The notes under the pieces are model-generated. The model made no database searches, was not told the origin of the DNA, and saw only the letters and a program-made list of their open reading frames with translations. 64,000 nt of DNA, from NCBI RefSeq assembly GCF_008711325.1, contig NZ_VXDB01000014.1, forward strand, positions 1 through 64,000, read 5' to 3'. This stretch comes from Roseibium sediminis. Its GTDB lineage: Bacteria; Pseudomonadota; Alphaproteobacteria; Rhizobiales; Stappiaceae. Below are positions 52,553 to 64,000 of this stretch, piece by piece (within the stretch, counting starts at the first letter, position 1; every line of letters starts with the position of its first letter). The translations under genes and the position numbers were made by a program.

Positions 52553-54088
52553 ATGGCATTGTCGACAAAGTTGGAGTTGCGTCAGAGCCAGTCTCTGATC
52601 ATGACGCCGCAGCTGATGCAGGCGATCAAACTGCTGCAATTGTCCAATCTCGACTTGAGCGCCTATGTGGAAGCCGAACTGGAGCGAAACCCACTCCTTG
52701 AGAAGTCGGATTCTGAAGCAGGTTTGCCCGGAGAAGAGGCTCAAGGTCAATCAGATACAGGTGATGAAGGCGGTTCTGCAGCGGGGTCCGACGCTGAAGC
52801 CTCCGACTGGATGGAAAACCAGCTGGAGATCAACTCTGAATCGATCGCGTCACGCATGGACACCGATCTTGGGAACGTCTTTCAGGACGAGCCGGGAGCG
52901 CCCACCCATAAGGATGCACCGGTTCTCACAGCTTCGGAGAGCATTCGCCCCGCAAGCGGCGGTCTGAGCGAAGACTACAATCTGGAAGCCTTTGTCGCCG
53001 AGAGCGAAACGCTGTCCCAGATGCTGGAAGACCAGATGCACATGGCCTTGAGCGATCCGGTCGACAAGCTCATTGCGGCTAATCTCATCAACTCGCTGGA
53101 TGACAACGGCTATCTGGAGCTTGATACCGAGGCGACAGCCGGAAGTTTCGGGGTTTCACCGGAGCGGATCGAAGCTGTTTTAGCTGTCTTGCAGACCTTT
53201 GAGCCTGCGGGGGTATTTGCCAGAAACCTCGCCGAATGCCTGAAGTTGCAGCTTTTGGAGCGCAATCGGTTCGACCCCGCCATGGCAGCACTGCTTGAGA
53301 ATATCGATCTTCTGGCAAAGCGGGATCTTGCCGCCCTGAAGCGGATTTGCCGCGTTGACGAGGAAGATCTTGCCGAGATGATCCAGGAAATCCGGGCTCT
53401 CGACCCCAAGCCCGGGGCGGTATTTGGCGTTGCGCCCGTTCAGCCACTTGTTCCGGACGTGTTTGTCCGTCCTGCAAGTGACGGGACATGGCACGTGGAG
53501 CTTAATAGCGACACCCTGCCGAAAGTGCTGGTCAACCAGACCTACTACGCGACAATCACCAAGCGCACTCGTGGAGAATCAGAGCGGGAATATCTGACTG
53601 ACTGTCTCCAGACTGCCAACTGGCTGGTGAAAAGCCTCGACCAGCGGGCGAAAACGATTTTGAAGGTTTCCACTGAAATCGTGCGTCAGCAGGACGGGTT
53701 CCTGACCCATGGGATCGAATATCTGCGCCCTTTGAATCTCAAGGTTGTCGCGGATGCAATCGGGATGCACGAGTCGACCGTGAGCCGTGTAACTTCAAAT
53801 AAATACATGGCAACACCGCGCGGCATTTTCGAGTTGAAGTACTTCTTTACCTCCGCGATATCTGCGACGGACGGTGAGGATGCGCATTCGGCAGAGTCGG
53901 TGCGCTACAAAATCAAGCAACTTATAGATGCGGAAGACCCCAAGGCGATCCTTTCGGATGATACGATCGTCAAGATTCTTGTTGGCGAGGGCGTGAATAT
54001 CGCGCGCCGTACAGTTGCAAAGTACCGCGAAGCCATGAAGTTGGGATCGTCCGTTCAAAGACGCAGAGAAAAACGCTCCAGATTATAG
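52553..54088 (+). CDS. rpoN: RNA polymerase sigma-54 factor
   Basis: A 511-residue sigma-54. Region I is glutamine/leucine-rich (LELRQSQSLIMTPQLMQAIKLLQLS), region II is acidic, and region III holds the core-binding part and an HTH (MHESTVSRVTSNKYMATPRG). The RpoN box ARRTVAKYREAM near the C-terminus recognises the -24 element. The position after lptB and before hpf and ptsN is the classical proteobacterial arrangement. Confidence 0.97.
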   Translation: MALSTKLELRQSQSLIMTPQLMQAIKLLQLSNLDLSAYVEAELERNPLLEKSDSEAGLPGEEAQGQSDTGDEGGSAAGSDAEASDWMENQLEINSESIASRMDTDLGNVFQDEPGAPTHKDAPVLTASESIRPASGGLSEDYNLEAFVAESETLSQMLEDQMHMALSDPVDKLIAANLINSLDDNGYLELDTEATAGSFGVSPERIEAVLAVLQTFEPAGVFARNLAECLKLQLLERNRFDPAMAALLENIDLLAKRDLAALKRICRVDEEDLAEMIQEIRALDPKPGAVFGVAPVQPLVPDVFVRPASDGTWHVELNSDTLPKVLVNQTYYATITKRTRGESEREYLTDCLQTANWLVKSLDQRAKTILKVSTEIVRQQDGFLTHGIEYLRPLNLKVVADAIGMHESTVSRVTSNKYMATPRGIFELKYFFTSAISATDGEDAHSAESVRYKIKQLIDAEDPKAILSDDTIVKILVGEGVNIARRTVAKYREAMKLGSSVQRRREKRSRL

Positions 54089-54385
54089 ACCTCTTACTTG
54101 ATGTCTGGATCTTGTTGCCCGGCAAATATTTGGGTTGGAGCAAGAAATCTTCAGAAATCGGCAGACGGCTTAGGCGAGGCTTGTAATCATGCGGGTAACC
54201 CTGCTGGATTCTTTGATTTGACAGCGTCAACTCACCCAGCTATACGCCCGCGTCGGTTCGTTTGCGGAAGGGGATGGCGCTTCGGCGCAGACTGGTTCAT
54301 TCTGTGGTCTTGAAACGTCCGCTGTTTCAAGCGCTGGCCACCCAGTCAGCGACCATAATGGTCCACACAAAAAGAAGAGGTCCCC
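54089..54385 (+). other. Gap between rpoN and hpf
   Basis: About 300 nt without a gene. It contains an 8-bp hairpin (CTTGAAAC / GTTTCAAG, 54309-54331) about 55 nt before the hpf start and presumably the hpf promoter, which I could not place with confidence. Confidence 0.5.
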
Positions 54386-54973
54386 ATGGCATTGCGGATT
54401 TCAGGCAAGCACGTTGATGTAGGCGATGCGTTACGCACCCACATTACAGACCGAGTTGAAGACGCCCTTTCGAAGTATTTCAATGGCGGCTACACCGGGC
54501 ACGTGACCCTGAGCAGGGAAGGTGCTGGATTCAAGTCGGAGTGTTCGCTGCATCTGGACACCGGCATCGTGTTGCAGGTGTCCGCACAGGACCACGATCC
54601 GCGCGCAAGTTTTGATCTTGCCGCTGAAAAGGTTGAAAAGCGACTTCGCCGTTACAAGCGTCGTCTCAAGGATCATCATGCCAGCAACAGCAATGGCAGG
54701 GATGATTATGAGGCCGCTGCCTATGTTCTGGCGTCCACCGAGGATGAGGAAGAACTGCCGGAGGACTACAATCCTCTGGTGATTGCCGAGACCGCGTCCA
54801 AGGTGAAGACAATGACGGTCGGAATGGCTGTCATGGAGCTGGACTTGACGGAAGCACCGGTTGTGATGTTCAAGAACGCCGCGAATGGCGGCCTGAACGT
54901 CGTCTACCGGCGCGCTGACGGCAATGTGGGCTGGATCGATCCGGCTCTGGTGGCGCAAGCTGCCGCTGAATGA
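54386..54973 (+). CDS. hpf: Long-form ribosome hibernation promoting factor
   Basis: A 195-residue protein with an N-terminal S30AE/YfiA domain (residues 1-100; LRISGKHVDVGDALRTHI) and a C-terminal dimerisation domain (VVMFKNAANGGLNVVYRRADGNVGWIDP). Long HPF pairs two 70S ribosomes into inactive 100S dimers. It was formerly called the sigma-54 modulation protein because of its place after rpoN. A good AAAGAAGAGG ribosome binding region precedes it. Confidence 0.96.
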   Translation: MALRISGKHVDVGDALRTHITDRVEDALSKYFNGGYTGHVTLSREGAGFKSECSLHLDTGIVLQVSAQDHDPRASFDLAAEKVEKRLRRYKRRLKDHHASNSNGRDDYEAAAYVLASTEDEEELPEDYNPLVIAETASKVKTMTVGMAVMELDLTEAPVVMFKNAANGGLNVVYRRADGNVGWIDPALVAQAAAE

Positions 54974-55048
54974 AATTAACGGGCGCGGCCCGTCCGGTCG
55001 ATGGGATCGGACGGGCCGACCTTTGAAAAGAATGCGTGTAGGCAAATC

Positions 55049-55516
55049 ATGGATCTGAGTGATCTCCTGAACAAGGATGCGGTCAGCGTTGGCTTCAAGG
55101 CCAAGAGCAAGAAGCAGGTCATCCAGGAATTGGCGGGGCAGGCAGCGGCAAAGACCGGACTGTCAGAACGCGAAATTTTCGACACCTTGTTGCAGCGCGA
55201 GCGACTGGGCTCGACCGGCGTCGGTCACGGGATCGCCATTCCGCACGGAAAGCTGACACGGCTTGGAGAGCTGGTCGGCTTCTTTGCCAAGTTGGACAAG
55301 CCGATTGATTTCGACGCGCTGGATGACGAGCCCGTCGATCTGGTCTTTTTGCTGCTGGCTCCGGAAGGCGCGGGCGCGGATCATCTGAAGGCCCTGGCCA
55401 GGGTGGCAAGACAACTCAGAGATCCCGAGATTGCACGGGGACTGCGCGAGGCACAGGATGCCGAAGCCGTTTATGCCCTGCTGGTGCAGCCGCTGGCTTC
55501 GTCAAACGCCGCCTGA
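55049..55516 (+). CDS. ptsN: PTS IIA-like nitrogen regulatory protein
   Basis: A 155-residue EIIA-Ntr. The phosphorylated His is in GVGHGIAIPHGK at about residue 66, followed by VDLVFLLLAPEGAGADHLKAL. It receives phosphate from the PTS-Ntr chain and influences potassium transport, stress and nitrogen control. I start at ATG 55049 (MDLSDLL), as in the family; an in-frame start 16 codons up gives an extra tail with no counterpart. Confidence 0.96.
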   Translation: MDLSDLLNKDAVSVGFKAKSKKQVIQELAGQAAAKTGLSEREIFDTLLQRERLGSTGVGHGIAIPHGKLTRLGELVGFFAKLDKPIDFDALDDEPVDLVFLLLAPEGAGADHLKALARVARQLRDPEIARGLREAQDAEAVYALLVQPLASSNAA

Positions 55517-55639
55517 AAAATTCCCTTATTATCTCTGACCACGGGAAAGCAGATCCCGTAGGCGAAGTATTTTGCCTGAGGGCGTCAAAATCCCTTCAAG
55601 GCAGTCTGGCATTGCTACCTCGGGATCGCCCATGGTGCC

Positions 55640-57469
55640 TCAAGCGCGTACGGTCGCAGAGGCTTGTTCGGGTGCTGCGACCAGAGTGTCCTGTTGATCG
55701 TCAGACTGCCCAAGGGCCGGAAGGCCAAGGTCTGACAAGAGCAGTGAAGGCGCCCGTTCTTCCGGCAGCTTCCACAGGCCCGAACGCATTGCGAGCCGTC
55801 CGAGCGTAATGGTTGACGTTGCCATGGCAATCGGAACGGCCAGCAAGGGGCCAAGCGCGATGGGCAGCACAGGCCAGATAAACTCGATTGGCTGAGTCGA
55901 GACCCATGCAAAGGCGAAAATTCCGAACGCGGTTTGCGGCCAGAGCTTTCGGAAGCTGAGGCCAAGCGGCAAGCTTTGCAGGCCGCGGGCCTGTGCGCCC
56001 CAGCCGATCGATTTGCCAAAAAGCAGGCCTGTCATGAAGACAGTGTGCGCAATCGCCATGATCGGCGCTATCAGTGCCGAATAAAGCAGCTCGCCAAATG
56101 CGCTGGAGAGAACTCGAAGTCCGCCACCAAAGCGCTCCCGGGTTTCCTTGTGGGCGACAATATCAATCACAGTGGCGAATTTGGGCGCAAAGACCATCGT
56201 CATGATGACAACGAAGAGCAGGCCGCCAGCGGCCGTATGCAGCGGCAATTCTCCCGGCTCCATCATCAGGGAGACAGCGGCGATACATCCCATGAAGATC
56301 ATCCATGCAGGCGAGCCGATGAACATAAGGATGGCAAGGCCAAGCTGGATGCGGCTTGTCAGGCGCAGGCCCGGATGGCGAAGCAGGCGGAAATACTGCA
56401 GATTGCCCTGGCACCAGCGCAGGTCGCGGCGGATGAACTCCAGAAGATGCGGCGGATTTTCCTCATAACTGCCGCCCTCTACCGGCAGGACTCGGATCTC
56501 GTATCCGGCCTTGCGCATCAAGACGGCTTCGACCTGATCATGGGAAAGGATGGTTCCGGAGAGCGGACCGGTTCCGTTCAGATGCGGCAGACGGCAATGT
56601 TCGCGGAACGGTGCAATGCGGATAATGGCGTTATGTCCCCAATAGGGTCCGCAGTCGCCTTGCCACCACGCGCTACCGAGTGTGTAGGACCGCATGCCGA
56701 GCCGCATTCCATATTGAAAGACGCGGGCGAAGGCGCTGTCAGTCGGCAATCCGACCGCAAGGCTCTGCAGAATGCCAAGATTGGGGTTCGATTCCATGGC
56801 CCGCACGAGTTCCACCAGCTTTTCGCCGGACACGACACTGTCCGCGTCGAGGGTCACGGCGAAGTCGAACTCACTGCCCCAGCGGTCACAAAAGTCCATG
56901 ATATTGCCGGCCTTGAAGCCGGTGTTATCGGTGCGCCGACGATAGGTGATCCGAAGTGCTTCACCCCAACGGGCCTTGAGTGCGTCCACCATGGCCGCTT
57001 CTTCTGCCGCAATGTCAGCCTTTGACGTGTCACTTAGGACAAAAAGCGAGAAGTGTCCGAGTGCCTTGTTCCGCTCAAGATCGACCAGCATGGCGGTCAG
57101 CTTGCGGGACAAGGGAGCAATATCTTCATCTCGAATGCAGGACAAAAGGGCTGTTCTGGAGGTGGGTGCCTGATCTTTGCGTCCCAGATCAATCGGGCAT
57201 ACGCTCGCCACCGGATCAGAGCTGAACCGCATGAGCATGAGACCGATGACAGCGTTCAGAAAGCCGATGATCGTCCAGGGAAGCGTGATCATGAAGCAGA
57301 TCAGCAACAGAATATCGATCTTGCTATAGCCGCCCGGCATCAGGGTCAGCGCCATCAGCGCGGTCAGACCAACAAAAGCCACTATGAACATCGAAACAAA
57401 CAGCAGGCGCCGACGTGTCATTCGATCCGCGAAGGATCCGGAGGCGGACATGGTAGGTTGATCACGCAT
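55640..57469 (-). CDS. opgH: Glucans biosynthesis glucosyltransferase (OpgH/MdoH-like)
   Basis: A 609-residue membrane glycosyltransferase of family GT2 that polymerises the beta-1,2-glucan backbone of osmoregulated periplasmic glucans. Two N-terminal helices (LLFVSMFIVAFVGLTALMAL and the following one) precede the catalytic domain with FAVTLDADSV (DxD-type), ILSHDQVEA and RRDLRWCQGNLQY (QxxRW-like). Several C-terminal helices follow. The start is ATG 57469; ATG 57451 is possible. No opgG/opgD partner is adjacent. It converges on ptsN and is nearly back to back with the dehydrogenase cluster. Confidence 0.9.
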   Translation of the reverse strand: MRDQPTMSASGSFADRMTRRRLLFVSMFIVAFVGLTALMALTLMPGGYSKIDILLLICFMITLPWTIIGFLNAVIGLMLMRFSSDPVASVCPIDLGRKDQAPTSRTALLSCIRDEDIAPLSRKLTAMLVDLERNKALGHFSLFVLSDTSKADIAAEEAAMVDALKARWGEALRITYRRRTDNTGFKAGNIMDFCDRWGSEFDFAVTLDADSVVSGEKLVELVRAMESNPNLGILQSLAVGLPTDSAFARVFQYGMRLGMRSYTLGSAWWQGDCGPYWGHNAIIRIAPFREHCRLPHLNGTGPLSGTILSHDQVEAVLMRKAGYEIRVLPVEGGSYEENPPHLLEFIRRDLRWCQGNLQYFRLLRHPGLRLTSRIQLGLAILMFIGSPAWMIFMGCIAAVSLMMEPGELPLHTAAGGLLFVVIMTMVFAPKFATVIDIVAHKETRERFGGGLRVLSSAFGELLYSALIAPIMAIAHTVFMTGLLFGKSIGWGAQARGLQSLPLGLSFRKLWPQTAFGIFAFAWVSTQPIEFIWPVLPIALGPLLAVPIAMATSTITLGRLAMRSGLWKLPEERAPSLLLSDLGLPALGQSDDQQDTLVAAPEQASATVRA

Positions 57470-57587
57470 TCTTGTGCAGTCCAGTATTGCCGAGAAAAGC
57501 GAATTCTCTTTTGGTTTGGGATGTTACGCGCGAAAACGCGTGATAGTTCAGGACGGAGCGAAAATCCATCACAAGGGTGTCGAGATT

Positions 57588-58568
57588 GTGTCTGAAACTC
57601 GGAATGTAGAAGCGTTGTGGTACTCGGCTCCCGGCACCTGCGAACTGAGGAGCGAGCCTCTTGCTGCAATGGGCATTGGAGAAGTCGAGGTCCATACCCG
57701 CTTCAGTGCGATCAGCCGTGGCACCGAGCGCCTTGTTCTTGAGGGCAGGGTTCCCGAATCCGAGTATGAGCGCATGCAGGCACCGTTCCAGAAGGGGGCT
57801 TTCCCCTTCCCGGTCAAATATGGCTACGCCTGCACGGGTGAAGTCGTGCAGGGACCATCCGAGTGGCTTGGTCGCCATGTGTTCTGCCTTCATCCTCATC
57901 AAACCGGCTTCATTGCCGATCCCGCCAATCTCGTCTCTGTTCCAGCGGCTGTTCCGCTCAAAAGAGCGATCCTTGCCGCGAACATGGAGACTGCACTCAA
58001 CGGTTTATGGGACGGAAATCCTTCACCTGCAGATCAAATTTGCGTGGTTGGAGCGGGAGTTGTCGGCCTTTTGACGGCCTATTTGTGCGCTCGCATACCC
58101 GGAACCGAAGTAACGGTGGTGGATGTGAACCCGGGCCGGCGCACCATCGCAGAGGCGTTCGGTTGCCGGTTTGCCTCATTAGCAGACGCGCCTGTCGACC
58201 AGGACCTTGTTTTCCACGCCAGTGCTAACGCGAGAGGACTGGAAACGGCGCTGAAAGCTGCGGGAAAAGACGCAACCGTCGTGGAATTGAGCTGGTATGG
58301 CGACAAACCGGTCGAGGTGATGCTGGGCGCTGATTTTCACAGCCGTCGTTTGACCCTGCGCTCCAGCCAGGTCGGCACCATCCCGGCCCACCGGCAGGCG
58401 CGGTGGACCTATCAACGGCGTCTGACTGCGGCGATCAATCTTTTGGCAGATCCGGTTATCGACAAACTTTTGACCCATGAGATTGCTTTCCATGACTTGC
58501 CAAAGCAGCTGCTGGAGCATTTAACCGGAAACCCGAATGTTCTGACGCCCGTCGTCCGGTATCCGTAA
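57588..58568 (+). CDS. Medium-chain dehydrogenase/reductase lacking catalytic zinc ligands
   Basis: About 326 residues of the MDR superfamily, usually labelled zinc-binding alcohol dehydrogenase. The cofactor motif is CVVGAGVVGLLTAYL, followed by an acidic strand end (VVDVNPGRR) suggesting NAD. The usual Cys and GHE zinc motif are replaced (SAISRGTERLVLEGR, VKYGYACTGEVV), as in BchC-like and quinone-reductase-like members, so it is probably a zinc-independent reductase. GTG 57588 was chosen since AAGGGTG precedes it and the product opens TRNVEALWYSAPG; the true start is not certain. It leads a four-gene cluster with a pterin-synthase homologue 34 nt downstream. Confidence 0.85.
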   Translation: MSETRNVEALWYSAPGTCELRSEPLAAMGIGEVEVHTRFSAISRGTERLVLEGRVPESEYERMQAPFQKGAFPFPVKYGYACTGEVVQGPSEWLGRHVFCLHPHQTGFIADPANLVSVPAAVPLKRAILAANMETALNGLWDGNPSPADQICVVGAGVVGLLTAYLCARIPGTEVTVVDVNPGRRTIAEAFGCRFASLADAPVDQDLVFHASANARGLETALKAAGKDATVVELSWYGDKPVEVMLGADFHSRRLTLRSSQVGTIPAHRQARWTYQRRLTAAINLLADPVIDKLLTHEIAFHDLPKQLLEHLTGNPNVLTPVVRYP

Positions 58569-58602
58569 TTTCATTCCAATCCCAGTTCTGGAAAGCCTGA
58601 CC

Positions 58603-59004
58603 ATGTTTGCTGTTGAAGTCCGCGACCACATCATGATTGCTCACTCCTTCCGGGGTGAACTGTTTGGACCTGCGCAGGCCCTCCACGGAGCGACCTTCGT
58701 TGTCGATGCCGCCTTTCTGTCGGAAGCCCTTGATGAAAACGGGGTCGTGATCGATATCGGCCGGGCACACGAGGCGCTGAAGGAAGTCCTTGGCCCGCTC
58801 AACTACAAGAATCTTGATGACATCGAAGAGTTTCGGGGAAAGAACACCACCACGGAATTCCTGACCAAACACATTCACGACCATCTCGCAAAAGCGGCAA
58901 GGGAAAATCGTCTGGGCCGCGCCGGAGACGAGTTGAAGGCAATTCGGGTCACTCTGTCAGAATCCCATGTGGCCCGCGCCTGGTACGAAGCGCCGGTCGC
59001 CTGA
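58603..59004 (+). CDS. 6-pyruvoyl-tetrahydropterin synthase/QueD-like protein without the catalytic triad
   Basis: A 133-residue T-fold protein aligned by eye with QueD/PTPS. Two zinc histidines remain (His14 in IAHSF, His28 in LHGA), but the third is Ala30 (HGA for HGH). The catalytic Cys is Ala24, and the Asp-His pair is Asn67-Tyr68 (LNYKNLDD for LDHHYLND). The pterin-anchoring Glu is kept (Glu120 in LSESHVARA), as is the TTTEFL segment. It therefore probably still binds a pterin-like ring but cannot do the standard reaction. It is 3 nt from the glycosyltransferase gene. Often annotated 6-carboxytetrahydropterin synthase; I doubt that function. Confidence 0.85.
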   Translation: MFAVEVRDHIMIAHSFRGELFGPAQALHGATFVVDAAFLSEALDENGVVIDIGRAHEALKEVLGPLNYKNLDDIEEFRGKNTTTEFLTKHIHDHLAKAARENRLGRAGDELKAIRVTLSESHVARAWYEAPVA

Positions 59005-59006
59005 TC

Positions 59007-60083
59007 ATGACAGAGCTGACATTCGCCTATCCGGGGGATATCGACACGCCGACCGGCGGATATGTCTATGACCGAAGGATCATCGCCGGGCTGAAGCGGC
59101 TCGGTTGGACGGTTGATCTTCTTCCACTTGGGGAGGGGTTTCCGTTTCCGGACAAAGCCGTGGTTGAGAATGCTGTTGCACGGCTGCTGGAGCTTCCTGA
59201 AGGAAGACGGGTGGTGGTGGATGGTCTTGCTTATGGGGTTCTGGACGAAGCCGCGGCACGTCTTGGCGCGCATCTCGACCTGACCGCCCTTGTGCATCAT
59301 CCTCTTTGCAAGGAGACGGGACTGTCAGCGGATGTTGCAGAAGCTTTTCTCGTGCAAGAGAAAGCAGCTGTTCGCGCTGTCGGTCGGATCATTGTCACCA
59401 GCCCGGCAACGGCAATGCAGGTGTCTGAACTGTTCGGCATCGCACCGGATGATATCCATGTCGTGCTGCCCGGAACAGAAGCAGAGCGACCGTCGGTCAA
59501 GCAGGTTTCTGACCCGACCGACGTGTGCGTGCGGTTGCTGTGCGTGGCAACGGTCACCCGCCGCAAAGGTTATGACCTTCTCATCCGGGCGCTGTCGACT
59601 TTGACCGCGTATCCCTGGCATCTTGATATTGTCGGAGACACAAGCCGCGATCCGGCGTGCTTTGCCGAAATTGAAACCCTGCTTGCGGAAGCGGGTTTGC
59701 AGGATCATGTCACTTTTCATGGCGCGGTGACGGCAGAAGAGCTTCCGGGCTTTTACGCGTCTGCCGACATCTTTGTGCTCGCAAGCCGCTATGAGGGCTA
59801 TGGGATGGCGTTTACAGAGGCTCTGGCTCACGGTCTTCCAGTGATCGGCAGTGGTGGCGGTGCGGTGCGTGATACCTTGCCTGATGACGCCAGCATCTAC
59901 TGTGAGACTGATGATGTGGAAGGTTTGAGAGCGGCGTTGGAGCAGCTGATCTCCTCGCCCGCTCGGCGGCAGCAGCTCTCCAGTGCAGCGCTGGTTGCTG
60001 CCGCACGATTGCCTTCCTGGTCAGATGCGGCAGACCGTTTTGCCAAAGCCCTGACTTCCAGACCTGCCGGAGCCCGCCCATGA
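59007..60083 (+). CDS. GT4-like glycosyltransferase
   Basis: A 358-residue GT-B fold retaining glycosyltransferase. The acceptor domain opens with FAYPGDIDTPTGGYVYDRRI (the N-terminal Gly-rich loop). The donor domain has CVATVTRRKGYDLLIRAL and the E-x7-E signature in SRYEGYGMAFTEALAHGLP followed by VIGSGGGA. It has no membrane segment, so it acts on a soluble or loosely bound acceptor. It is tightly packed between the pterin-synthase homologue (2-nt gap) and the methyltransferase (4-nt overlap), which implies one pathway. Donor and acceptor unknown. Confidence 0.9.
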   Translation: MTELTFAYPGDIDTPTGGYVYDRRIIAGLKRLGWTVDLLPLGEGFPFPDKAVVENAVARLLELPEGRRVVVDGLAYGVLDEAAARLGAHLDLTALVHHPLCKETGLSADVAEAFLVQEKAAVRAVGRIIVTSPATAMQVSELFGIAPDDIHVVLPGTEAERPSVKQVSDPTDVCVRLLCVATVTRRKGYDLLIRALSTLTAYPWHLDIVGDTSRDPACFAEIETLLAEAGLQDHVTFHGAVTAEELPGFYASADIFVLASRYEGYGMAFTEALAHGLPVIGSGGGAVRDTLPDDASIYCETDDVEGLRAALEQLISSPARRQQLSSAALVAAARLPSWSDAADRFAKALTSRPAGARP

Positions 60084-60892
60084 GCACCTTTGACGCCGAA
60101 TGGCTGGCGCTTCGGGAGGCCTACGATCTGCCTGCCCGCTCGGATGAAGTAGAGCAGGCGTTCATTCAGGCTTTGCCAAACGATCGTGTTCAGCTGATGG
60201 ATCTTGCCAGCGGTTCTGGGGCAACTGTCACCGCGCTTTCGCATAAACTCCGGCAGTCCGGTCGGCAGGAGCAGAATTGGACGCTGATTGATTTTGATGC
60301 AGGTCTTTTGGCACGAGCGGTTGAAAAGCATGCAGGCAAGCCCGATCTGAGCGTTAGCGCCAGAACAGTCAATCTGGCCACCGATCTCTCCGCTCTGCCC
60401 TATCAGGATATCGATGCGGTGACGGCTTCGGCATTCTTTGATCTGGTCAGTCAGGAATTTATTGTCGAGCTCGTGGGGCATCTCGCGCGCCACCGGCTTC
60501 CGCTTCTTGCAAGCCTGACTTACGACGGGCGCACCGAGTGGACACCGCACAATGGGTCAGATGCAACGATCCTGGGCGCTTTCAATCAGCATCAGACTGG
60601 CAACAAGGGATTTGGTGCGGCATTGGGCCCAAATGCTCCGGCAATCCTTGCTGGTGAGCTGGAAAAGGCAGGCTACCGCGTGATCCGGCAAACATCAGAC
60701 TGGGTGATTCCAACCGGACATCTGCCGATGCAGACCGCGCTTCTGGAGGGCTGGCTGCAGGTTGCCATGGAGTTGGAAGTAGATCCGCGGATACGCGCGA
60801 ACTGGGATGCTGACCGACGTCGCCAGATGGCAGCAAATGGCCTGTCGATGACCGTTGGGCATGTCGATCTTTGTGCTATTCCTGAGGATTGA
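60080..60892 (+). CDS. Class I SAM-dependent methyltransferase-like protein
   Basis: A 270-residue protein with a Rossmann-type SAM-binding core. Motif I is LMDLASGSGATVTAL at about 35-50, the acidic end of strand 2 is TLIDFDAGLL, and motif IV lies around DAVTASAFFDLVSQEF. The later part (LPLLASLTYDGRTEWTPH) looks like a substrate-binding lid. It overlaps the glycosyltransferase by 4 nt. Which atom it methylates is unknown; by context it would finish or decorate the product of the upstream three genes. Confidence 0.82.
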   Translation: MSTFDAEWLALREAYDLPARSDEVEQAFIQALPNDRVQLMDLASGSGATVTALSHKLRQSGRQEQNWTLIDFDAGLLARAVEKHAGKPDLSVSARTVNLATDLSALPYQDIDAVTASAFFDLVSQEFIVELVGHLARHRLPLLASLTYDGRTEWTPHNGSDATILGAFNQHQTGNKGFGAALGPNAPAILAGELEKAGYRVIRQTSDWVIPTGHLPMQTALLEGWLQVAMELEVDPRIRANWDADRRRQMAANGLSMTVGHVDLCAIPED

Positions 60893-61186
60893 CGGCCAGG
60901 GAGGCGATTTCCTTAGGGTTATTAGGGGTCTTCCAGCTAAGTCATTCCGCGGCAGAAATATTGAGAAACAAATCATATTTCAGAGAAAATGGTGCGGCAT
61001 GGGGTCAGTTGAAAGAAAAACTAAAGATTGCACAAAATAAATAATACAACTGATGGGATATGTTCTTGTAATTAAGGTGGTTAGACAACGTAATTTAGAT
61101 TTTGTTTACCAATAATATTGAGTCATTTTTTAACATTCATTGCAAGGATGCGTTAACTGAGTTGTTAGTTTTCAGGACGCGTATCC
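60893..61186 (+). other. AT-rich region upstream of bcsA
   Basis: About 290 nt without a gene, notably AT-rich from 60955 to 61150. It contains two TTAAC-type elements (near 61130 and 61152) and must carry the cellulose operon promoter. I see no clear -35/-10 pair. Confidence 0.45.
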
Positions 61187-63439
61187 ATGTCCCAAGTTAT
61201 AAAAATCAGCCTGTGGGCGCTGTCTGCCCTGCTATTGGCTGGTCTGGTGGCCCTTCCCATAGGCACATCATCCCAGCTGGTGGTCGGACTCAGCCTTCTG
61301 GGAGCCCTGATTCTTATCTGGGCTTTCGTCCGGGCACCCATTCAAAGACCGCTGATGATGTGTGTCGGTACCATTCTGGTGCTGCGCTATCTCTATTGGC
61401 GCGTTTTTTACACGCTCCCCAACGTCCATGATCTTCCGGACTTTATCCCGGGCGTGATTCTTCTGGCGGCAGAATTGTTCTGCATCGGAATGCTGTTCAT
61501 CAGCTTGTTTGTCGTCATGCGTCCCCTCGATCGGCCGCGTGCGCCGCAATTGAGTGATGAAGATCTGCCGACCGTTGACGTCTTCATTCCGACCTACAAT
61601 GAGGAGATCGGGATTCTGATGGCGACCTTGGCAGCCGCCATCGGTCTCGACTACCCGACCCACAAGCGCACGGTTTACCTGCTGGATGATGGCGGCACGG
61701 ACCAGAAGTGCATGTCGGATAACCCGGAAGCGGCTGCCGCTGCCAGGGAGCGCCGCAAGAAGCTCATGGCTTTGTGCGACGAAATGGGCGCGGTCTATCT
61801 CACCCGGTCGCGCAACATTTCAGCCAAGGCTGGTAACCTGAACAATGGCCTGCAGCATTCGACCGGAGAGCTCGTTGTCGTCTTTGATGCCGACCATGCG
61901 CCGACGCGGGAATTCCTGCGCGAAACTGTTGGGCATTTTTCGGTCGATCCGAAACTGTTTCTCGTTCAGACACCTCACTTCTTCCTTAATCCGGACCCGA
62001 TTGAAAAGAACCTGTCGACCTGGCGTCGCATGCCGTCCGAAAACGAGATGTTCTACTCGGTCATCCAGCGCGGACTGGACTACTGGAATGCTGCCTTTTT
62101 CTGTGGTTCGGCCGCAGTGCTGCGTCGCTCGGCCCTCGCTGAAACGAACGGTTTCTCCGGCATCTCGATCACCGAGGATTGCGAAACTGCGCTTGAGTTG
62201 CACTCACGTGGCTGGAACAGCCTCTATGTCGACAAGCCCATGATCGCCGGTCTCCAGCCGGAGACGTTCTCGAGCTTCATTGGCCAGCGGTCCCGCTGGT
62301 GTCAGGGCATGATCCAGATCCTTTTGATGAAGAATCCGGTCTTCAAGCGAGGTCTGTCGCCAGCCCAGCGTATTTGTTACCTGTCGTCGGCGCTGTTCTG
62401 GGCGTTCCCGTTTCCGCGCCTGACCTTTCTGGTCGCACCGCTGCTGTTCATTTTCTTTGAACTTCGGATTTTCGTGGCTAACGGCCAGGAGTTTCTCGCC
62501 TATGCGGTGACCTATCTGTTGGCGAACATGATTCTCCAGAACTACCTCTTCGGGAAGGTCCGTTGGCCGTGGGTGTCCGAACTCTACGAGTACATCCAGT
62601 CGTTCTATCTCGGCCCGGCGATTGTTTCTGTTCTGCTGCGCCCCAAGAAGCCGACCTTCAACGTGACCGAGAAGGGACTCACCACTGATCGCGATTCGCT
62701 GTCCTCTCTGGCAGGTCCCTATTTCGCGTTCTTCGGCATCCTTCTTGTCGCGATGATCTATGGCGGATGGAAGTATTTCGATCAGGCCGTCGACAAGGAT
62801 CTTCTGATCGTTGTTCTCATCTGGAACACGGCGAACCTTGTGCTCGCGGCGGGCGCGCTCGGTTGCGTGACCGAACGGTCGGAAAAGCGCAAGACACAGC
62901 GCCTTGAAGTCAACCGCAGCGGCTATCTGGAATATTGCGGGAAATACTACCCGGTCAGCATCTTTGATGCGTCAAGCGAAGGCGCCGGGGTGTTCTTCCT
63001 GCCGAGCGCATCGCTGCCACCGCGCATCGAGGGGCATGCCTTGGGTAACCTCTACATCACGCCGGTCGATGGCAGCGAAACCACCACAAGCGTACCGATT
63101 ATCGTGCGGCGCGGCCTCTCGTCGGGCGGGCGCACGGGCTATGGCGTGCAGTTCTGCGCCGTCTCCAGCCTGCACCACAAGCTGATCGCCGAGCTGATGT
63201 TCGGACGCGCGGATCCGCTCGCCGACTTCTGGAATGTTCGGCGGGTTGGCAAGGGCATCATTCGGGGGACGGCACACTTCCTCTCCATGTCCGCTCGCCA
63301 GATCTTCCGTGCAATCAAGATTGCCTGGCGCGACTGGGTGCCCCGGTCTTCGGGCACTCCGGAAACAAATCCGCCGGTTCCCCTTCAGGGCGCGTCTAGC
63401 CCACCGGCCGGGGTCCTCGCACCGGTGATGGAGAAATAG
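61187..63439 (+). CDS. bcsA: Cellulose synthase catalytic subunit with PilZ domain
   Basis: A 750-residue inner-membrane GT2 enzyme that polymerises UDP-glucose to cellulose and exports it. Several N-terminal helices lead to the catalytic loop: DVFIPTYNEEIG, LLDDGGTDQK, DxD in VVFDADHAPTREF, TED in SITEDCETA and Q-x2-RW in GQRSRWCQGM. More helices follow, then a PilZ domain with RxxxR (RKTQR) and D-x-S-x2-G (DASSEGAG), the cyclic di-GMP binding pair. So synthesis should be switched on by c-di-GMP. bcsB follows 4 nt later. Confidence 0.96.
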   Translation: MSQVIKISLWALSALLLAGLVALPIGTSSQLVVGLSLLGALILIWAFVRAPIQRPLMMCVGTILVLRYLYWRVFYTLPNVHDLPDFIPGVILLAAELFCIGMLFISLFVVMRPLDRPRAPQLSDEDLPTVDVFIPTYNEEIGILMATLAAAIGLDYPTHKRTVYLLDDGGTDQKCMSDNPEAAAAARERRKKLMALCDEMGAVYLTRSRNISAKAGNLNNGLQHSTGELVVVFDADHAPTREFLRETVGHFSVDPKLFLVQTPHFFLNPDPIEKNLSTWRRMPSENEMFYSVIQRGLDYWNAAFFCGSAAVLRRSALAETNGFSGISITEDCETALELHSRGWNSLYVDKPMIAGLQPETFSSFIGQRSRWCQGMIQILLMKNPVFKRGLSPAQRICYLSSALFWAFPFPRLTFLVAPLLFIFFELRIFVANGQEFLAYAVTYLLANMILQNYLFGKVRWPWVSELYEYIQSFYLGPAIVSVLLRPKKPTFNVTEKGLTTDRDSLSSLAGPYFAFFGILLVAMIYGGWKYFDQAVDKDLLIVVLIWNTANLVLAAGALGCVTERSEKRKTQRLEVNRSGYLEYCGKYYPVSIFDASSEGAGVFFLPSASLPPRIEGHALGNLYITPVDGSETTTSVPIIVRRGLSSGGRTGYGVQFCAVSSLHHKLIAELMFGRADPLADFWNVRRVGKGIIRGTAHFLSMSARQIFRAIKIAWRDWVPRSSGTPETNPPVPLQGASSPPAGVLAPVMEK

Positions 63440-63443
63440 GTTC

Positions 63444-64000
63444 ATGACCGCAATTTCAGAAAAAAAGCGCCAGAAGGCGAGTGGGCGTCATATGGCTCGG
63501 CTGAAATACTCTCTGGGGATTCTGGCATGCGTGGGGTTTGCGAGCCTGCCCGCGTTCGGTTTGGAACTCCAGACACTGGAGCTTCCCGATACCGCGTTCC
63601 GGCCGCTTCCAGCTCTTTCGACCGACCTTCGCCTGACCGGGGAGGCCGACTATCGCGAATGGCCGGTTTATCTCACCGCGTCGCAGGCGGAACAGAAGCT
63701 CGTTTTCGAGGCCGCTCTGACATCTGCTGTTTCCGTCATGCCAGAAGGATCGCTGATGCGCGTGACCGTCAATGGTCATGTCATTGACGAGCGGTCGATT
63801 GAGGCAATCGGCAAGCAGCAGCTGATTGCGTTCGATGTTACTCCCGGTGCATTTCAGCCTGGCTACAACGTGGTGCGTATGCAGATGCTGCAAAGGCACC
63901 GTGTCTCTTGCGAAACGGCTGCCACCTATGAATTGTGGACCGAGATAGATCCCTCACGGACAGGCCTGCGCTTTGAAAAGCCCAGCCTGGATCTCCTGTC
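63444..64000 (+). CDS. bcsB: Cellulose synthase regulatory subunit BcsB (3' end beyond window)
   Basis: The first 185 residues of a BcsB protein that continues past the window edge. A signal segment (YSLGILACVGFASLPAFG) is followed by an N-terminal carbohydrate-binding-like domain: LRLTGEADYREWPVYLTASQ, ALTSAVSVMPEGSLMRVTVN, and the BcsB-typical QMLQRHRVSCETAATYELW. It would form the periplasmic channel part for the emerging glucan. It is tightly linked to bcsA, with no other bcs gene visible. Confidence 0.93.
   Translation, partial: MTAISEKKRQKASGRHMARLKYSLGILACVGFASLPAFGLELQTLELPDTAFRPLPALSTDLRLTGEADYREWPVYLTASQAEQKLVFEAALTSAVSVMPEGSLMRVTVNGHVIDERSIEAIGKQQLIAFDVTPGAFQPGYNVVRMQMLQRHRVSCETAATYELWTEIDPSRTGLRFEKPSLDLL

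Follow-up and report, generated by a model that had tools for sequence, protein, structure and literature searches.

A conserved, co-inherited operon of Roseibium sediminis may be the core of a pathway leading from ring-opened GTP to the cell membrane

Introduction

PTPS and QueD, which belong to the T-fold family PF01242, carry ring-anchoring Thr/Glu and Glu residues, and such anchors recognise the 2-amino-4-oxo face that is common to pterins and ring-opened guanine. One solved member of this fold, SCO6650 of Streptomyces coelicolor (PDB ID: 3d7j), was deposited under the title 'uncharacterized protein'; it is reportedly devoid of both zinc and the catalytic triad and does not carry out the PTPS reaction. 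Here we analyze a four-gene operon (57588..60892) of Roseibium sediminis that encodes a protein of the same family as SCO6650, similar to it over the full length and altered in the same motifs. The operon lies in the first 64,000 nucleotides of contig NZ_VXDB01000014.1, and this whole stretch is referred to hereafter as the window.

Other described systems resemble parts of this locus. Cyanopterin synthesis places a glycosyltransferase, PgtA, in a pteridine context, and the available part of that report mentions neither a RibA nor a RibD_C partner, unlike the cluster described here (PMC3546692). In the riboflavin pathways that involve archaeal ArfB or bacterial BrbF, GTP is opened and the formyl group is then removed by a separate enzyme; BrbF of Sinorhizobium is described as a creatininase-like formamidase acting on a RibA-type intermediate (PMC9478397). 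The synthesis of MdoGH glucan involves an MdoH enzyme, and a gene for an MdoH-like GT2 glycosyltransferase lies beside the operon.

We find that the operon is a conserved, co-inherited unit, which likely serves a dedicated pathway built on a pterin-type ring. Judging by the genes inherited together with it, this pathway probably shares its starting compound, ring-opened GTP, with vitamin B2 and would end at the cell membrane. We tentatively propose, rating the chance at slightly less than even, that a widespread system with a patchy inheritance has this operon as its core and modifies a 2-amino-4-oxo-pyrimidine derived from the opening of the guanine ring of GTP.

Layout of the operon

The operon and its divergent neighbor comprise the following features.

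57588..58568, + strand: MDR-family dehydrogenase with a GTG start, labelled 'zinc-binding alcohol dehydrogenase' in other annotations
58603..59004, + strand: PTPS-fold protein of the SCO6650 type, with A24 at the catalytic Cys position, A30 at that of the third zinc His and Y68 at that of the catalytic His, and with T84, E85 and E120 kept
59007..60083, + strand: glycosyltransferase of the GT4 type, EX7E motif at residues 263-271
60080..60892, + strand: class I S-adenosylmethionine-dependent methyltransferase, assigned from weak class I profile matches and an AlphaFold model
55640..57469, - strand: orphan divergent MdoH-like GT2 membrane glycosyltransferase with DAD and R..RW motifs
57470..57587, no strand: divergent intergenic stretch of 118 bp between the mdoH-like and MDR genes, the presumed control region

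The open reading frames bear out the tight packing described in the first-pass annotation, with spacings of 34 nt and 2 nt and a final overlap of 4 nt, all on the + strand, and Pfam and NCBIfam searches support the four gene classes that it had named, the dehydrogenase and the methyltransferase with scores under the curated cut-offs of all models listed.

Distribution and co-inheritance

The distribution of these genes was determined in a class-wide sample of 387 genomes drawn without regard to the cluster, in which the best three to six candidates per genome were scored for MDR, RibD_C, MdoH and RibA. Because the sampled genomes are related, Fisher values overstate their independence and are used descriptively. 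A PTPS-like match is present in 60 genomes, 51 of them strong (E<=4.1e-30) and nine at E 3e-6 or weaker, and the genomes with a strong MDR match (E<=1e-30) are exactly these 51. In 48 of them the dehydrogenase gene directly precedes the PTPS-like gene in the same orientation, and the packing of the operon is therefore far from chance. The first-pass annotation had taken the four genes for one transcription unit and had named a lack of conserved synteny in related genomes as one observation that could unseat its proposed pathway; synteny is conserved.

Inheritance of the cluster is patchy. All but one of the 13 genomes of the genus carry the PTPS-like gene (R. sediminis included), the exception being an assembly of 560 contigs, and within one family (f94) it is present in G091, G321 and G383 and absent from G180 and G256. 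The cluster is also found in beta- and gammaproteobacteria and in actinobacteria. Furthermore, the PTPS-like gene appears in 20 plasmid records; of the 15 examined, 11 have an adjoining MDR gene and four, all from Streptomyces, do not.

A particular subtype of the riboflavin-type reductase RibD_C is present in 45 of the 51 genomes with the PTPS-like gene and in none of the other 336, at a cut of 130 bits chosen after the gap in scores (130 vs 109 bits) had become visible. It lies no more than 8 kb from the PTPS-like gene in 40 of these 45 genomes; in three it is on another contig and in two more than 60 kb away. Likewise, an MdoH subtype was delimited at 460 bits once a gap (463 vs 397 bits) could be seen, and it occurs in 21/51 genomes vs 0/336; with a cut fixed beforehand (E<=1e-100), the figures are 26/51 vs 2/336. 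In nine of the 21 genomes the MdoH subtype is not near the PTPS-like gene, being on a different contig in seven and at a distance of over 500 kb in two, and in three genomes (G383, G321 and G028) the detached MdoH gene sits within 1.2 kb of the detached RibD_C gene. Such co-inheritance without linkage points to a shared function, and the divergent MdoH-like glycosyltransferase is thus a fifth member of the system, missed by the first-pass annotation.

Partner genes in the neighborhoods

Gene content was compared across 95 loci, consisting of 80 genome-contig loci, 14 plasmid loci and the window, annotated with profiles at a floor of 60 bits. The genome-contig loci represent the 80 nearest in a set of at least 574 relatives, and 23 of the 94 loci fetched span less than 15 kb, so the counts lean toward near relatives and miss partners. 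The PTPS-like gene is masked by longer antisense open reading frames or other reading-frame choices in 13 of the 95 loci, and the counts are hence profile-based; counting without overlapping frames gives lower figures (PTPS 89, MDR 83, methyltransferase 76, RibA 37).

The core genes are present in 81 to 95 loci (PTPS 95, MDR 87, GT4 86, methyltransferase 81). The commonest partners are MdoH (62), RibD_C (60), RibA (38) and cytochrome b561 (33), followed by an FkbM methyltransferase (24), a CDP-alcohol transferase (16), a flippase-like protein (10) and a creatininase (6). These counts bear out the earlier view that relatives of the cluster sometimes include ribA and a CDP-alcohol transferase. 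MdoH and the CDP-alcohol transferase never occur together in one locus, and 17 loci have neither. The cluster of Streptomyces fungicidicus comprises genes for a CDP-alcohol transferase, MDR, the PTPS-like protein, GT4, the methyltransferase, a creatininase and ribA. In seven betaproteobacterial loci (L054, L064, L066, L068, L070, L071 and L094) the methyltransferase gene is shifted to the mdoH side and is still present.

This assortment of membrane and glycosyl transferases suggests another explanation, in which the MdoH-like or CDP-alcohol transferase, GT4, FkbM and flippase-like proteins would build a lipid or a glycan of the periplasm, with the PTPS-like protein doing no more than sense a pterin. 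The counts of MdoH, the CDP-alcohol transferase, FkbM and the flippase-like protein agree with it, as does the orphan state of the mdoH-like gene: the genome of R. sediminis has no MdoG match in a search that detects the E. coli control, which rules out canonical OPG (MdoGH glucan) synthesis. The MdoH subtype, moreover, tracks the PTPS-like gene, another difference from the MdoGH system. A sensor role would not need the RibD_C subtype that is kept in most genomes, however, and the PTPS-like protein is the best conserved member of the cluster, with a mean identity of 62% vs 35-51% for nine partners (calculated over differing locus sets). We therefore consider a membrane glycolipid or glucan an unlikely explanation, and retain the membrane step, through MdoH or a CDP-alcohol transferase, as an addition to the earlier picture of the operon.

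The PTPS-fold protein

The window protein matches PF01242 at 80.3 bits (cut-off 22.4) and scores below the cut-offs of the curated QueD and 6PTHBS models. SCO6650 is its sole close solved relative (phmmer E 2.1e-42, residues 1-130), and the two have in common the motifs FGPAQ.LHGAT, LNY.NLD and ESH; with a profile of the PTPS-like family, rat PTPS and E. coli QueD are matched as well.

Residues were counted in 91 sequences aligned to 1b66, with the four Streptomyces loci L041-L044 left out. The position of the catalytic Cys, which we take to correspond to rat Cys42, is Ala in 90 sequences and Gly in one. The Asp of the catalytic triad (position 67) is Asn in 77 sequences and Asp in three, and the catalytic His (position 68) is Tyr in 90 and Phe in one. 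Two zinc-binding His residues, H14 and H28, are kept in all 91 sequences, whereas the third (of H-G-H) is Ala in all of them. These replacements, which distinguish the family from PTPS and QueD, rule out a canonical enzyme of either kind. Eight residues are invariant throughout (H14, Q25, H28, D51, D72, T84, E85 and E120), of which T84, E85 and the C-terminal E120 are presumably those that anchor the ring. Two of the four Streptomyces proteins, aligned separately, likewise have the Ala and HGA residues. Since the catalytic positions are replaced, the anchors invariant and the protein the best conserved of the cluster, its fold appears from the alignments to be recast, not decayed.

These features bear on the pterin-glycoside pathway put forward in the first-pass annotation. 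In its classical form, dihydroneopterin made by FolE would pass to the PTPS-like protein and be reduced by the MDR enzyme, methylated and glycosylated, as in cyanopterin. The PTPS fold with its ring anchors and the GT4 enzyme within the operon fit such a route, for which cyanopterin, as far as the available part of the report goes, provides a precedent (PMC3546692). A FolE source would also suit the genome of R. sediminis, which has one folE and no dedicated RibA or RibD_C. Against this route stand the replaced Cys, His and zinc ligand of the PTPS-like protein and the identity of its tightest partner, which is a riboflavin-type reductase; moreover, the FolE of R. sediminis, used as a query, found no relative in the 94 fetched neighborhoods (E<=1e-5). 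Of the two genes proposed for a co-occurrence check, ribA thus lies beside the cluster in 38 of the 95 loci and folE in none of the 94 fetched, and what stands of the pathway is a conserved, co-inherited unit. In its classical form we judge it improbable, and the evidence favors a branch from the start of riboflavin synthesis with a membrane end step over a pterin glycoside derived from FolE.

The dehydrogenase, glycosyltransferase and methyltransferase

The best profile matches of the dehydrogenase are BchC and ADH_zinc_N. Among 40 relatives, no Cys occupies an invariant or nearly invariant column, in agreement with its earlier description as zinc-less; the enzyme is predicted to lack zinc, and a zinc-dependent alcohol dehydrogenase was rejected on the absence of the conserved zinc-binding Cys. 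An invariant Asp179 suggests NAD as the cofactor. Its structural model (mean pLDDT 95) has a fold that matches zinc-type MDRs such as butanediol, L-idonate and threonine dehydrogenases, with TM scores up to 0.80 at 13-18% identity among the best 50 matches listed.

The glycosyltransferase matches PF00534 at 102.1 bits (cut-off 26.4). Both it and the MdoH-like protein keep their catalytic motifs, which we take to be EX7E in the former and DAD and R..RW in the latter. For the methyltransferase, whose AlphaFold model has a mean pLDDT of 97, the PDB yielded no sequence relative that was convincing; a fold search with the model returned generic class I matches (TM scores 0.41-0.61 among the best 50 listed) and gave no hint of a substrate.

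Riboflavin-type partners

The cluster RibD_C protein that was checked (L061) is a stand-alone reductase without a deaminase domain, in which respect it presumably resembles the archaeal reductase. Its best solved relatives, 2azn and 6p8c, are named riboflavin-type pyrimidine reductases, and the 2-amino group of the substrate should therefore be kept.

Cluster RibA proteins retain the equivalent of E. coli Tyr105 in all 36 proteobacterial sequences retrieved with a CDCG-based pattern, which presupposes the Cys motif; the other two of the 38 RibA loci are L060, a partial match, and L035, from Streptomyces. When RibA was picked by length (n=16), CDCG and Tyr were both invariant. The RibA proteins of S. 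fungicidicus and S. globisporus have Met for this Tyr, and a creatininase gene adjoins each. In one further locus (L093:12977-14428), the cluster RibA has Cys for Arg in QEGR and a creatininase-family gene lies beside it. The N-terminal part of the cluster RibA gives a weak alignment to the RibB domain (hhalign probability 85%), whose acidic motif it lacks in the alignment shown, which suggests that it does not synthesize butanone phosphate. The coordinates place RibA within 6 kb of the PTPS-like gene in 15 or more of the 51 genomes.

With both RibA and RibD_C as partners, the branch could also lead to a modified flavin, deazaflavin or lumazine, such as a ribityl-lumazine-like pigment or light antenna. 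The retention of the 2-amino group predicted from the L061 reductase argues against such a product. Furthermore, Pfam look-up of 38 of the 39 neighbor families present in at least five loci (three without a match, the 39th being antisense to the PTPS-like gene) revealed no lumazine synthase, riboflavin synthase or photolyase. We regard a flavin or lumazine as very unlikely. The cluster differs from the riboflavin pathways that begin with ArfB or BrbF in this lack of lumazine and riboflavin synthases among its annotated recurrent neighbors, and in the addition of MDR, methyltransferase, GT4 and membrane transferase genes.

Local and regulatory context

No promoter-like site was found by sequence scan in the 118-bp stretch, promoter and terminator scans gave 3 vs 1.7 expected and 6 vs 4.1 expected, and a search for RNA elements at 55000-62000 gave no match at gathering scores. 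Directly downstream of the operon, positions 61187-63998 hold a PilZ-domain CelA/BcsA gene followed by the beginning of bcsB. From L032 onward, no locus has a match to the BcsA or BcsB of the window (E<=1e-30), which are therefore local neighbors only; a link to cellulose was rejected. Upstream of the mdoH-like gene (52553-55516) lie what we take, from their translations, to be rpoN, hpf and ptsN-like genes, and sigma-54, S30AE and EIIA genes are likewise found upstream of the cluster in three other Roseibium loci (L046-L048). In Beijerinckiaceae-like loci (L072, L073, L078, L081 and L087), genes for an ECF sigma factor and an HGSNAT-type acyltransferase recur upstream, and L072 additionally has a PhyR-type regulator gene; these are possibly regulators and a tailoring enzyme of the cluster.

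Discussion

The partners of the operon suggest a series of steps, whose chemistry and order we infer from the gene content. In the fuller clusters, RibA (GTP cyclohydrolase II) would make 2,5-diamino-6-ribosylaminopyrimidinone 5'-phosphate (DARPP) from GTP; two Streptomyces clusters may reach the same product in two steps, through a Met-type RibA and a creatininase-type formamidase. The stand-alone RibD_C reductase would then convert the ribosyl chain to a ribityl chain, and the PTPS-fold protein would hold the pyrimidine or pterin ring without the zinc- and Cys-dependent PTPS reaction. The predicted zinc-less MDR could oxidize or reduce a side-chain alcohol, and the methyltransferase and the GT4 enzyme would decorate the compound. 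Glycosylation, anchoring or export of the product would fall to an enzyme of the membrane, either MdoH-like or a CDP-alcohol transferase together with a flippase-like protein; the product could be either a pterin or a still ring-opened pyrimidine.

Several observations weigh against this scheme. RibA adjoins the cluster in just 38 of the 95 loci, and its type is unspecific: it is carried by 173 of the 387 genomes (E<=1e-60), for which reason RibA was rejected as a specific marker. The pairing of a Met-type RibA with a creatininase rests on two Streptomyces loci and is not exclusive, since Tyr-type loci (L053, L069 and L093) also have a creatininase-family neighbor. Some Rhodobacterales loci, such as L038, L113 and L121, lack GT4 beside the PTPS-like gene, and in the stretches fetched for the Streptomyces plasmid loci L041-L044 there was no profile match to MDR, GT4, this type of methyltransferase or RibD_C. 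(These solo PTPS-like copies lie near sigma-70 family and cupin genes, with a MEKHLA-domain gene in three of the four.) The RibD_C subtype is absent from six of the 51 genomes, that of R. sediminis among them. There, the only RibD_C domain lies inside a 376-aa RibD-type frame, and the one GTP_cyclohydro2 domain lacks CDCG. This domain is the cyclohydrolase half of a RibBA protein (G000:C106:149892-150359, L138), which lacks the QEGR motif as well, and the DARPP for riboflavin probably comes from another source in this organism, for which the route reported through BrbF in Sinorhizobium offers a comparison; the genome also has one creatininase-family gene. Since this genome has no dedicated RibA or RibD_C, the cluster in the window appears to be a reduced form, and the organism would either borrow the first two steps or use another pteridine.

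A more specific version, which we consider doubtful, is that the product belongs to a new class of glycoconjugates, either linked to the membrane or exported. Its head would be a ribityl-pterin, or a ring-opened diaminopyrimidine branched off before riboflavin; MdoH-like and CDP-alcohol transferases would be interchangeable end enzymes, and the PTPS fold would act as a zinc-free enzyme.

As the first-pass annotation had also stated, no product is assigned to such clusters in the literature searched, a scope that excludes subscription papers and preprints. The gene set is nevertheless present in about one eighth of the sampled genomes of the class (51/387). If its product is indeed a membrane compound with a pteridine or diaminopyrimidine head, the operon would stand for a branch of GTP-derived metabolism that is new, would account for SCO6650, whose structure is solved and its role unexplained, and would give a testable function to some ten co-inherited gene families.

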